A DNA stretch of 64,000 nucleotides, taken from positions 1-64,000 of the forward strand of contig JAEPMY010000004.1 in NCBI GenBank assembly GCA_017643685.1. The letters are read 5' to 3'. Below are positions 36,544 to 50,625 of the stretch, one piece after another. Under the pieces are notes generated by a model. That model made no database searches, was not told the DNA's origin, and worked only from the letters and a program-made list of their open reading frames with translations. The position numbers were made by a program, and so were the translations under genes. This DNA is from Sneathiella sp. (lineage in GTDB: Bacteria > Pseudomonadota > Alphaproteobacteria > Sneathiellales > Sneathiellaceae). Numbering within the stretch: position 1 is the stretch's first letter; every line of letters begins with the position of its first letter.

Positions 36544-36626
36544 ATAAAAACAATTACTTGGGTATTGGGGTGTAATTACAGCAAGCATTCACAGTAATAC
36601 ATGGCATTATTTTTTATATACGTTAA

Positions 36627-36654
36627 TTGTAATTTAAGAAAATGCCCCTAAATT
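36627..36654 (+). promoter_or_regulatory. candidate promoter of dispersed CCUCCC sRNA
   Basis: TTGTAA-16 nt-TAAATT. Confidence 0.45.
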
Positions 36655-36660
36655 AATCAG

Positions 36661-36754
36661 TATCAGCCCGCGTCGGGCTGTCGATTGGAACCTTTCCAAT
36701 CTATTTGACGCCTCCCTGTTGACTTGAGCCGCCCACTTAGGCGGCTCTTTTTTT
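36661..36754 (+). ncRNA. candidate trans-acting sRNA (copy D): two hairpins, CCTCCCTGTT, intrinsic terminator
   Basis: CAGCCCG-CGT-CGGGCTG; GATTGG-AACCTTT-CCAATC; CCTCCCTGTT 36711-36720; terminator GAGCCGCC-CACTTA-GGCGGCTC-TTTTTTT. Shares CCTCCCTGTT-n(1-2)-ACTT-terminator with copies B and C. Confidence 0.75.
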
Positions 36755-42884: not shown

Positions 42885-43853
42885 ATGGCAGAAACATTTA
42901 AAACACCTACCCTGATCATTGGTTCTGGTCCTGCCGGATGTACGGCTGCCATTTACGCGGCGCGTGCGTCTTTAAAACCGATCATGGTTCATGGCATTCA
43001 GCCAGGTGGGCAGCTTACAATCACAACAGATGTTGAAAACTATCCTGGTTTTGCAGATCCTATTCAGGGCCCATGGCTTATGGAGCAGATGGAAGCACAG
43101 GCAAAGAATGTCGGCACTGAAATCCATCACGACGTTATCGTTGAACTTGATACATCCGTCCGACCATTTGTCGCAAAATCTGACGGCGGCAACACCTACA
43201 TTGCAGACACCGTAATCATTTCAACTGGTGCATCAGCAAAATGGCTCGGCCTTCCTGCGGAAGAGCAATATATGGGCTTTGGTGTGTCCGCTTGCGCAAC
43301 ATGTGATGGCTTCTTCTATCGCGGCAAAGAAGTCATGGTTGTCGGGGGCGGTAATACTGCGGTTGAAGAAGCGCTTTATCTGACCAACCACGCAGATAAA
43401 GTCACAATCATTCACCGCCGGGATAGCTTCCGCGCTGAAAAGATTCTGATCGATCGACTCAACAAAAATCCAAAAATTGAGGTGATCTGGAATACTGTTC
43501 TGGACGATATTGTCGGCGAGCAGCCTGCAGGTGTCACAGCGGCCCGTATTCGCAACGTAACCACAGACGACGTTCGTGATCTTCCGGTGCATGGCATCTT
43601 TATTGCCATTGGGCACAAACCAAATACCGACGTTTTCAAAGGTAAAATCGAGATGGATGAAGAGGGCTATATCACGACAGCCCCTGATTCCACCGCGACC
43701 AATATCCCTGGTGTTTATGCCTGCGGCGATGTCCAGGATAAAATTTACCGTCAAGCGGTAACAGCAGCAGGTACCGGCTGTATGGCTGCATTAGAAGCAG
43801 AACGCTTTATTGCTGAACATGAAGACGCAGCGGAAACTGTCGCCGCTGAGTAA
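42885..43853 (+). CDS. trxB: thioredoxin-disulfide reductase
   Basis: GSGPAGCTAAIYAARA; redox motif CATCDGFFYRG. Confidence 0.96.
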   Translation: MAETFKTPTLIIGSGPAGCTAAIYAARASLKPIMVHGIQPGGQLTITTDVENYPGFADPIQGPWLMEQMEAQAKNVGTEIHHDVIVELDTSVRPFVAKSDGGNTYIADTVIISTGASAKWLGLPAEEQYMGFGVSACATCDGFFYRGKEVMVVGGGNTAVEEALYLTNHADKVTIIHRRDSFRAEKILIDRLNKNPKIEVIWNTVLDDIVGEQPAGVTAARIRNVTTDDVRDLPVHGIFIAIGHKPNTDVFKGKIEMDEEGYITTAPDSTATNIPGVYACGDVQDKIYRQAVTAAGTGCMAALEAERFIAEHEDAAETVAAE

Positions 43854-43981: not shown

Positions 43982-44872
43982 ATGGATTGGGACAAATTGC
44001 GCATCTTCCATGCGGTCGCAGAAGCTGGCAGTTTTACACATGCTGGTGAAACTCTACATTTGAGTCAGTCTGCTGTAAGCAGGCAGATCAGTGCATTGGA
44101 AGAGAGCCTGAAGCTACCTCTTTTTCATCGACATGCACGTGGTCTACTGCTGACAGAGCAGGGGGAACTCCTGTACCGAACCGCGCATGAGATTTTTGCA
44201 AAGCTGGCCATGACAGAGGCCATGCTGGCCGATTCCAAAGAAAAGCCAACTGGCGAGATCAAAGTTACCTCAACTGTCGGGCTTGGCTCTAACTGGCTGA
44301 CCCCCCGGATCCGTGAATTTGTTGAATTATATCCAGATATCCGCGTTAATCTTATTCTGGCCGACCGGGAACTGGACCTCAGTATGCGGGAGGCAGATGT
44401 TGCTATTCGGCTCCGCCAACCTGTGCAGCCAGACCTGATTCAGCGAAAACTGGCAACCGTTCGGCACCACTTATACGCATCTGTTGAGTATGTCGAAAGA
44501 TATGGCGCACCTGCGTCACTTGAGGATCTACTGCAGCGGAATATTTTGATTTATGGTGACGAGGCACCCTCCAATATCGCCAATATCAACTGGATTATCG
44601 ATATCCTTAAAGAAATGGATCCGAACATTACCCCTGTTTTCAAGGTGAACAACGTCTACGGGTTGCTTCTTGCCATTCAAAGCGGACTTGGTATTGGAAG
44701 CCTCCCCGACTACATCACTGAGGGTCACAAGAATCTGGTGCGCGTCCTTCCAGAGGTGGAAGGGCCTGAGTTTGACACCTATTATGTCTATCCAGAAGAG
44801 CTCCGGAAATCTAAGCGTGTCACTATTTTTAGAGACTTTTTGATCCGAAAAGTGTCCGAGTCCAATTTTTAG
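43982..44872 (+). CDS. lsrB: LysR-family regulator of the LsrB/VtlR type
   Basis: MDWDKLRIFHAVAEAGSFTHAGETLHLSQSAVSRQISALEESLKLPLFHRHARGLLLTEQGELLYRTAHEI; sequence and trxB adjacency match the rhizobial LsrB/VtlR group. Confidence 0.82.
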   Translation: MDWDKLRIFHAVAEAGSFTHAGETLHLSQSAVSRQISALEESLKLPLFHRHARGLLLTEQGELLYRTAHEIFAKLAMTEAMLADSKEKPTGEIKVTSTVGLGSNWLTPRIREFVELYPDIRVNLILADRELDLSMREADVAIRLRQPVQPDLIQRKLATVRHHLYASVEYVERYGAPASLEDLLQRNILIYGDEAPSNIANINWIIDILKEMDPNITPVFKVNNVYGLLLAIQSGLGIGSLPDYITEGHKNLVRVLPEVEGPEFDTYYVYPEELRKSKRVTIFRDFLIRKVSESNF

Positions 44873-44923
44873 GCAACGTTTTTCATCATAATTTCATAAT
44901 GTTAGCTGAAATTGTATACAGCT

Positions 44924-44938
44924 ATGCATGAAGCGCAT
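44924..44938 (+). promoter_or_regulatory. LysR-type dyad upstream of sRNA A
   Basis: ATGC-ATGAAGC-GCAT (T-N11-A); centre 53 nt before candidate -10 TAAATA at 44984. Confidence 0.55.
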
Positions 44939-44993
44939 GCCCGCTTTGTCGATTTAATGCTACTACTCAATGTCATTTTTATCTAAATAACAA

Positions 44994-45157
44994 TTGTGCA
45001 AAGCAATAGACGCACAACTGGTTTTCCCAACAACCTCCCTTCTGTTGGTGAAATAGCTGTTTTGTTTCTCCCAGGCAAAACGGCCTTCATGTGAATAACA
45101 TGAAACTCCCTGTTAGTAGGCCAGCCTTCTCCCCCTCAAGGCTGGCCTTTACTTTTT
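44994..45157 (+). ncRNA. candidate AbcR-like sRNA A
   Basis: Hairpins TTGTGC/GCACAA; CCAACA-aCCTCCCttc-TGTTGG; GCTGTTTTG-tttCTCCCagg-CAAAACGGC; TTCATGT-GAATA-ACATGAA; CTCCCTGTTA 45106-45115; terminator GGCCAGCCTT-CTCCCCCTC-AAGGCTGGCC-TTTACTTTTT. 5' end inferred. Confidence 0.8.
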
Positions 45158-45237
45158 CCAGCTCTTTGAAAAACCTAGACTTGTTTGACGCACATCTATT
45201 CTTGCACTGCGTAATTTGCATGCTCTCGCCTTACGCT

Positions 45238-45252
45238 ATGCGTTAAGCGCAT
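45238..45252 (+). promoter_or_regulatory. LysR-type dyad upstream of sRNA B
   Basis: ATGCG-TTAAG-CGCAT (T-N11-A); GCTATGC[A/G]T[G/T]AAGCGCATG shared with the copy A element; 53 nt from candidate -10 TATATT 45298-45303. Confidence 0.6.
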
Positions 45253-45308
45253 GGGTGCACTGCAAAATATATGCTGGATAAAAGAAAGGCATTTGCCTAT
45301 ATTCCAAT

Positions 45309-45461
45309 CATCAACGCTGCACCGCAGCATTGATCGAATATCGACCCCCCTTATCGATATTCCGTTACTTGTTTTCCTCCCAGATACAAGTAACCGTATC
45401 ATCTTAGGATGATATACCTCCCTGTTAGACTTACCAGCCTCTTACGAGGCTGGTTTTTTTT
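45309..45461 (+). ncRNA. candidate AbcR-like sRNA B
   Basis: Hairpins ATCAAcGCTGC-ACC-GCAGCaTTGAT; GAATATCGA-CCCCCCTTA-TCGATATTC; GTTACTTGT-tttCCTCCCagat-ACAAGTAAC; TATCATC-TTAG-GATGATA; CCTCCCTGTT 45417-45426; terminator CCAGCCTC-TTAC-GAGGCTGG-T8. Confidence 0.85.
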
Positions 45462-45465
45462 GGCC

Positions 45466-45480
45466 ATGTTCAGGGCGCAT
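45466..45480 (+). promoter_or_regulatory. partial LysR-type dyad upstream of sRNA C
   Basis: ATGT-TCAGGGC-GCAT; 52 nt from candidate -10 TATCTG 45525-45530. Confidence 0.45.
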
Positions 45481-45535
45481 AGCAGATATTCCAGATTATG
45501 GGTTTAACAAAGATCGAGAGAGCATATCTGTAAGG

Positions 45536-45658
45536 TGTTCCGATGACCTCCCTATTTTATTGGAACAGCGGCCATGTTCCCTGTAAGGCCGCAGCCAACT
45601 TTGTTGGCAAACCTCCCTGTTAAACTTGCCGGCCTTTTAAAGGCCGGCGTTTTTTTTT
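45536..45658 (+). ncRNA. candidate AbcR-like sRNA C
   Basis: Hairpins TGTTCCGAT-gaCCTCCCtatttt-ATTGGAACA; GCGGCC-atgttCCCTGTaa-GGCCGC; GCCAAC-TTT-GTTGGC; CCTCCCTGTT 45612-45621; terminator GCCGGCC-TTTTAAA-GGCCGGC-G-T9. Confidence 0.85.
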
Positions 45659-46631
45659 ACATAAACAAACGCTCTCGCCCCAGATCTTTATATAGCGAAG
45701 CAACTTCTTCCTCATACCCATTATAGATTTGGGTCGGAATACGGTCTCCGGTCCGCAAATCTCGCTCTGTTGCCTGCGACCAGCGAGGATGACGCACCTC
45801 AGGGTTCACATTCGCCCAGAAACCATACTCTTTATCATTCAGTTTTTCCCAAAAACTGATCGGGCGTTCATCAGTAAAATGAAAACGGACAATAGATTTG
45901 ATCTGCTTGAAACCATATTTCCAAGGAACCGCAAGGCGCAAAGGCGCCCCATTTTGTTTTGGAAGAGGCTTCCCATACAACCCGGTCACAATGAAAGACA
46001 GGTCATGAGTTGCCTCTTCTATGGTGAGCCCTTCCCTGTACGGCCAGGGATACCAGAACTGTTTCTGACCTGGCGCAATGGAACTGTCCTGAAAGGTTTC
46101 CATGACAAGATACTTGGCGTTTGACTTTGGCTTCGCAAAAGCAACTAAGTCTTTTAACGCAAAGCCACTCCACGGCACCACCATTGACCATGCTTCGACA
46201 CAGCGATGACGGTAAATCCGCTCCTCCAACTGCATTTTGGAGAGAAGGTCATCTACATCGATATCCATCTCCTCCTCAACAAGGCCGTCAATTTTAACGC
46301 TCCATGGTCGAATTTTAAGTGCCTGAGCTGCTTCGGATATGCTTTTGTGAGAGCCAAACTCATAGAAGTTATTATAAGTCGTCGCTAGTTTTTCTGGCGT
46401 TAAAGGGCGTCCGCCTTCATACGCAGCGTTTCTTGCCACAGGATAAAGTGAGGCGGATGGATCTTCTGAGGCGGCAGCAAAGGCGGGATTTCCAAAACCT
46501 GCAAGCGCCGCCCCTGCAACACCGGCCAATCCCATTGCCTTCAAAATCTGTCGCCGATCTGTGTAAATCGCTTCTGGCGTGATAGCGTTTTCAGATAATT
46601 CCCAACGTTTCTTGAATTTGATCAGCATACT
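45657..46631 (-). CDS. msrP: protein-methionine-sulfoxide reductase catalytic subunit MsrP (YedY)
   Basis: Tat signal TDRRQILKAMGLAGVAGAALAG; IYRHRCVEAWSMVVPWSGFALKDLV molybdopterin fold. Confidence 0.92.
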   Translation of the reverse strand, partial: SMLIKFKKRWELSENAITPEAIYTDRRQILKAMGLAGVAGAALAGFGNPAFAAASEDPSASLYPVARNAAYEGGRPLTPEKLATTYNNFYEFGSHKSISEAAQALKIRPWSVKIDGLVEEEMDIDVDDLLSKMQLEERIYRHRCVEAWSMVVPWSGFALKDLVAFAKPKSNAKYLVMETFQDSSIAPGQKQFWYPWPYREGLTIEEATHDLSFIVTGLYGKPLPKQNGAPLRLAVPWKYGFKQIKSIVRFHFTDERPISFWEKLNDKEYGFWANVNPEVRHPRWSQATERDLRTGDRIPTQIYNGYEEEVASLYKDLGRERLFM

Positions 46632-46693
46632 TCTTTCCCGCTTTTGCAAAAAACTCCATTTTGAGAATGGAACGGCAGACAGATCAACTCAAG

Positions 46694-50397: not shown

Positions 50398-50625
50398 ATG
50401 GCTTACAAATCTTTGCACATTAGAAATAACAGTTTCTCAACTGGTGGCGCAAAATTCACAAAACGTGGTGTTGTAAGTTCTGCTCTGGAAACGCTGGTAA
50501 CATGGCAGGCTCGTGCATCAATGCGCCGCCAGATGGCCGATTTGGATCAATATAACTTAAAAGACATGGGCCTTACTGCCCATCAGGTCGAAGCAGAAAT
50601 TCAGAAACCTTTCTGGCAGGCCTAA
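50398..50625 (+). CDS. DUF1127 family small protein
   Basis: 75 aa; C-terminal [28 protein letters not shown] matches the YjiS/DUF1127 pattern; RBS AAGAAGGAG. Confidence 0.85.

Follow-up and report, generated by a model that had tools for sequence, protein, structure and literature searches.

Three tandem sRNA-like units downstream of lsrB in Sneathiella carry predicted LsrB/VtlR operators at a fixed distance from their −10 elements

In Sneathiella sp., the ∼780 bases between a gene for an LsrB/VtlR-type LysR regulator and the convergent msrP gene hold three sRNA-like units (A, B, and C), each comprising a dyad on the 5′ side, a −10-like hexamer, hairpins that carry CCTCCC or CTCCC motifs, and an intrinsic terminator. 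On the combined evidence of conserved motifs and of parallels with characterized relatives, we consider it highly probable (about 0.87) that the elements upstream of A, B, and C are operators of this regulator, which would activate three paralogous anti-Shine-Dalgarno sRNAs. From published work on relatives, we infer protein binding, activation, where transcription starts, and how the sRNAs act on mRNAs. The DNA analyzed, referred to below as the window, comprises positions 1–64,000 of the forward strand of JAEPMY010000004.1 (assembly GCA_017643685.1).

Results

The regulator gene (43982–44872, plus strand) encodes a 296-amino acid protein with Pfam HTH_1 and LysR_substrate matches. Its 5′ neighbor is trxB, encoding thioredoxin reductase (42885–43853, plus strand; TIGR01292, 414 bits against a cut-off of 343), and msrP lies convergent to it at 45657–46649 on the minus strand. 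A trxB gene accompanies the regulator gene in 30 of 30 and 71 of 80 related loci. When solved structures were compared, the best match to the regulator was 9HH1 (337 bits over the full length, E 8e-100; the next reached 112 bits, E 2e-31), which was deposited as A. tumefaciens LsrB (PMC11975290). Based on its trxB neighbor and its closest structure, the 43982–44872 protein is an LsrB/VtlR ortholog.

The dyads that a sequence-only reading had placed upstream of the three units were found exactly there: ATGCATGAAGCGCAT at 44924–44938, ATGCGTTAAGCGCAT at 45238–45252, and ATGTTCAGGGCGCAT at 45466–45480. The form ATG-N6-GCGCAT, which this reading took to be shared by them, does match all three, but conservation does not extend to the GC that begins GCGCAT, the form in relatives being YGCAT. 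The left arm of dyad C is ATGT instead of ATGC. Taken bare, ATG-N6-GCGCAT is unspecific, with seven matches in the window against 1.05 expected and four of the seven lying outside the three sites. The extended ATG-N8-GCAT-N4-G-N3-T is found in the window at sites A, B, and C only (0.80 matches expected; at least three in 4 of 100 shuffles). As stand-alone search patterns, ATG-N6-GCGCAT and ATGC-N7-GCAT-N4-G-N3-T were rejected as too loose.

DNA 3′ of LsrB orthologs was gathered from 22 same-genus relatives, from other genomes of the class, and from 80 named records representing many families. A binding-site matrix was built from 59 sites beside LsrB orthologs at non-genus loci only, from a seed pattern that came from the published box and the dyad of the sequence-only reading, and was used to scan both strands of the 64-kb window (∼128,000 positions) as well as the retrieved loci. 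The matrix consensus is G-C-Y-ATGC-R-N5-Y-GCAT-R-G-C-T-G-N3-T-G-C. Because the window and the genus were absent from training, the ranking of the three sites by this matrix is a fair test. Operators B (ATGCGTTAAGCGCATGGGTGCACT, 45238–45261), A (ATGCATGAAGCGCATGCCCGCTTT, 44924–44947, the dyad plus its downstream half), and C (ATGTTCAGGGCGCATAGCAGATAT, 45466–45489), all on the plus strand, scored 32.2, 26.1, and 20.6 bits, respectively, and ranked first, second, and third of the ∼128,000 positions. Operator A itself also took the fourth rank, its palindrome being readable on the reverse strand as well (44911–44941, minus strand, 19.6 bits; no gene is evident in the divergent direction), and the next site scored 12.1 bits. 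The complete element exceeds the dyad first described, as ATGC-N7-GCAT is followed by N3-(T)G-N3-T(G) and conservation extends at least 9 bases downstream of the dyad. The observation of three sites is confirmed; it is correct and far above chance.

The element in the window unites two published partial motifs, with the central GCAT common to both. One is the AbcR1/VtlR box, GCAT-N3-TG-N3-T, at −61 to −49 of AbcR1 (PMC7486931, PMC8844928), the published VtlR motif in Brucella being CAATGCAGCCATGCA. The other is TGCA-N6-GCAT, an LsrB motif that lies at −72 of NfeR1 and is supported by EMSA and point mutations (PMC10746234). Operator B contains an exact GCAT-N3-TG-N3-T box at 45249–45261, which, relative to the start predicted at 45310, spans −61 to −49, and A and C are each one base off the published TG, with CG and AG, respectively.

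The spacing originally given between the dyad center and the −10 hexamer, 53, 53, and 52 nt for A, B, and C, proved exact for TAAATA (44984–44989), TATATT (45298–45303), and TATCTG (45525–45530), all on the plus strand. Across 48 non-genus sites, a −10-like hexamer was present 51–54 nt past the dyad center in 62%, with a peak at 53 nt, against 5% on average elsewhere and 11% for shuffled sequences, so this spacing belongs to the whole lineage. The TATCTG of sRNA C is weak but is placed where the −10 of its relatives falls. With transcription predicted to start ∼12 nt past the 5′ base of the −10, the dyad center lies near −65, the usual position of a LysR recognition site, and the −35 regions of the three promoters are poor. 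A center near −65 combined with a poor −35 is the geometry of an activator, which argues against a regulator that binds these sites but represses, or that chiefly affects lsrB or the convergent msrP and not the sRNAs. LysR proteins can repress, and site A also scores on its reverse strand (19.6 bits), but LsrB/VtlR activates AbcR1, AbcR2, NfeR1, and DUF1127 genes in relatives, and we regard repression or another main target as very improbable. Activation of the three sRNAs is the reading that we prefer.

The predicted sRNAs A (44995–45154, start at about 44995), B (45310–45462), and C (45537–45657), all on the plus strand, stand in series between lsrB and the next gene and have fold z scores of −3.5, −7.9, and −6.0, respectively. 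CCUCCC loops (single-stranded anti-Shine-Dalgarno motifs) and terminator hairpins, both expected of AbcR sRNAs, are present in them; CCTCCC occurs in hairpins of sRNA B at 45376–45381 and 45417–45422, and in sRNA C at 45547–45552 and 45612–45617, with an intrinsic terminator in B and a terminator in C. The consensus fold of copy B from 14 genomes of the genus has compensatory changes in 13 of its 23 pairs. A covariance model of the 3′ part of copy B (R1) was built from B copies, so that the 110 bits scored by B itself (45364–45462) reflect its origin; the model also detects C (45568–45656, 55.7 bits, E 1.9e-09) and A (45056–45154, 43.9 bits, E 4.7e-07) in the window. Within the genus, R1 finds three copies in most genomes, all of them in the array except a few weak extras, and it matches, more weakly, at the same position of the locus in many other families. 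Judged by these matches, sRNAs A, B, and C are one homologous family that is conserved at this locus. A small conserved hairpin, GATGTTGC-N-GCAACATC, is found at the 5′ ends of many of the sRNAs in the genus and in other families (e.g. at loci L025, L044, and L059).

The homology of the three sRNAs and the 17 of 19 bases that are identical between operators A and B would also fit dyads that are alike merely through duplication of a promoter-sRNA unit, without selection as regulator sites. However, the site and its −10 spacing have stayed constant across 16 to 23 species and other families, even though the promoter and 5′ sequences in between diverged. We consider duplication without selection to be extremely improbable and retain the reading of the dyads as operators.

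When the window and the genome were searched with Rfam RF02345 (ar15), no match above the gathering score was found, and none was found in 289 genomes of the class, with control genomes equally lacking a match, so that these negatives do not show ar15 to be absent; RF02345 does match Phyllobacterium (locus L102, 65 bits). Below threshold, SorX matched all three sRNAs and suhB matched B and C, and the window sRNAs reached the gathering score of none of SorX, suhB/mmgR, and ar15. Because the ar15 threshold was missed, the sRNAs are not filed as AbcR; by analogy, they probably work like AbcR. Elsewhere in the window, a BjrC1505-type sRNA (36626–36754, plus strand; RF02356, 67.5 bits) shows weak similarity in its 3′ part to the sRNA B model (25.9 bits) and has no LsrB-type site.

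Within the genus, the operator precedes copy A at all 23 loci (in degenerate form at L017), copy B at all 22, and copy C at 16 of 22; the copy C site is decayed in some species and absent in others. Where it is missing, control of copy C by the regulator is not essential, as if C had been uncoupled from it. At loci L016, L018, L020, L021, and L023, the copy C operator is lost or decayed, yet the sRNA is retained downstream of lsrB. With a strict search pattern, 22 of 25 genus genomes yielded 27 sites, most of them at copy B, against 0 for the reversed control.

Operator-like sites also lie beside LsrB in most of the other lineages examined. Among 191 sampled genomes of the class, 12 strict sites outside the genus sit just downstream of lsrB, where an estimated ∼0.004 would be expected at random. 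A close LsrB relative is encoded in 107 of these genomes, and strict sites were found in 28 of the 107 compared with 7 of the 84 without one (Fisher p 0.002, ignoring shared ancestry). Outside the array, the best site in the same Sneathiella genome (locus L111, 25.3 bits) lies upstream of a gene for a DUF1127 small protein, and DUF1127 proteins are VtlR targets in Brucella (PMC12595884). An operator ∼190 nt before single-domain DUF1127 genes was found at L111 and in about eight cases in genus relatives, making these genes predicted targets, and a DUF1127 gene in another family (L214) has an operator with the same 53-nt spacing. No operator was found upstream of the longer, tandem-domain DUF1127 genes. 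A DUF1127-like stretch in the window (50488–50589, plus strand) scores below the family cut-off and has no operator upstream. A 22-bit site elsewhere in the genome (L151) was set aside, as it lies inside a coding gene.

These distributions bear on whether a LysR-type regulator other than LsrB mainly binds the sites, their position beside lsrB being incidental. The genome has 38 LysR-type matches, and T-N11-A is generic for the LysR family; against this, the sites match motifs proven for LsrB/VtlR, persist beside this one ortholog across the class, and co-occur with DUF1127 targets, and we judge another regulator improbable. The sequence-only reading had named the adjacent LsrB/VtlR-type gene as the regulator of the dyads, and this proposal is supported by the motif match, the class-wide linkage and spacing, the DUF1127 sites, and the co-occurrence.

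A thiol switch has been reported for A. tumefaciens LsrB (PMC11975290). No cysteine was found in the 296-amino acid window regulator, a trait that it shares with 49 of 81 aligned relatives, and the positions that correspond to the conserved, redox-active C144 and C273 of rhizobial members (A. tumefaciens numbering) are 140 and 269. Among the 80 loci, only Phyllobacterium (L102) has this cysteine pair. Lacking cysteine, the window protein cannot operate the thiol switch of rhizobial LsrB. The redox cysteines characterize the rhizobial proteins that have been studied and not the LsrB/VtlR family as a whole.

Discussion

In the circuit that we propose, the regulator encoded at 43982–44872 would bind the T-N11-A dyad ATGC-N7-GCAT near −65 together with the adjoining GCAT-N3-(T)G-N3-T half. 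The bound regulator would recruit RNA polymerase to promoters with a fixed-distance −10 and a poor −35, and the three paralogous sRNAs would be switched on. By base-pairing of their CCUCCC loops to Shine-Dalgarno sequences, they may reduce translation of target mRNAs, as with AbcR sRNAs, a class marked by Hfq dependence and by repression of ABC-transporter mRNAs. The predicted regulon comprises the three sRNAs and a DUF1127 protein, under one full operator that now joins two published partial motifs.

The LsrB/VtlR-to-sRNA switch has mainly been studied in host-associated Rhizobiales, and the present analysis places it across a far wider range of Alphaproteobacteria. LsrB was termed unique to Rhizobiales in a 2025 paper (PMC11975290) and is described elsewhere as conserved among Alphaproteobacteria (PMC7486931). 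We give even odds to a broader proposal, in which control by LsrB of CCUCCC-type sRNAs and DUF1127 through one fixed-distance operator would be an ancestral regulon of the Alphaproteobacteria and the cysteine redox switch a later addition. If the switch was added later, the ancestral regulator, with that of the window included, would answer to a different signal, probably a small ligand. Cysteine-based redox sensing as the original function of LsrB is called into question.

The system closest to that of the window is VtlR/LsrB with AbcR1 and AbcR2 in Brucella, Agrobacterium, and Sinorhizobium (PMC7486931, PMC8844928). The parallel with it drawn in the sequence-only reading stands for the trxB-lsrB-sRNA gene order, the GCAT-N3-TG-N3-T box at about −61 to −49, and the DUF1127-type targets, and anti-Shine-Dalgarno sRNAs with terminators are likewise common to both; it fails for the redox cysteines, which the window regulator lacks, and for the ar15 threshold, which its sRNAs miss. 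The window also differs in having three sRNA copies with an operator on all three, and its operator has a left ATGC arm that is absent from the published box. In S. meliloti, AbcR2 depends on RpoH1 and not on LsrB (PMC8844928), a state that copy C resembles where its operator was lost in the genus.

A second relative is LsrB-NfeR1 of S. meliloti (PMC10746234), which shares with the window TGCA-N6-GCAT (T-N11-A, at −72 in NfeR1) and an sRNA with several anti-Shine-Dalgarno motifs. LsrB is there an activator on a σ70 promoter, to which the window circuit may be likened; NfeR1 carries an NtrC repressor site too, and it is held to be distinct from AbcR1/2 (PMC10746234). To the Rfam families SorX and suhB, the window sRNAs are similar below threshold, suhB being in the clan of ar15. 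Taken together, these comparisons give good support to the window circuit as a variant of the known LsrB/VtlR-sRNA circuit.
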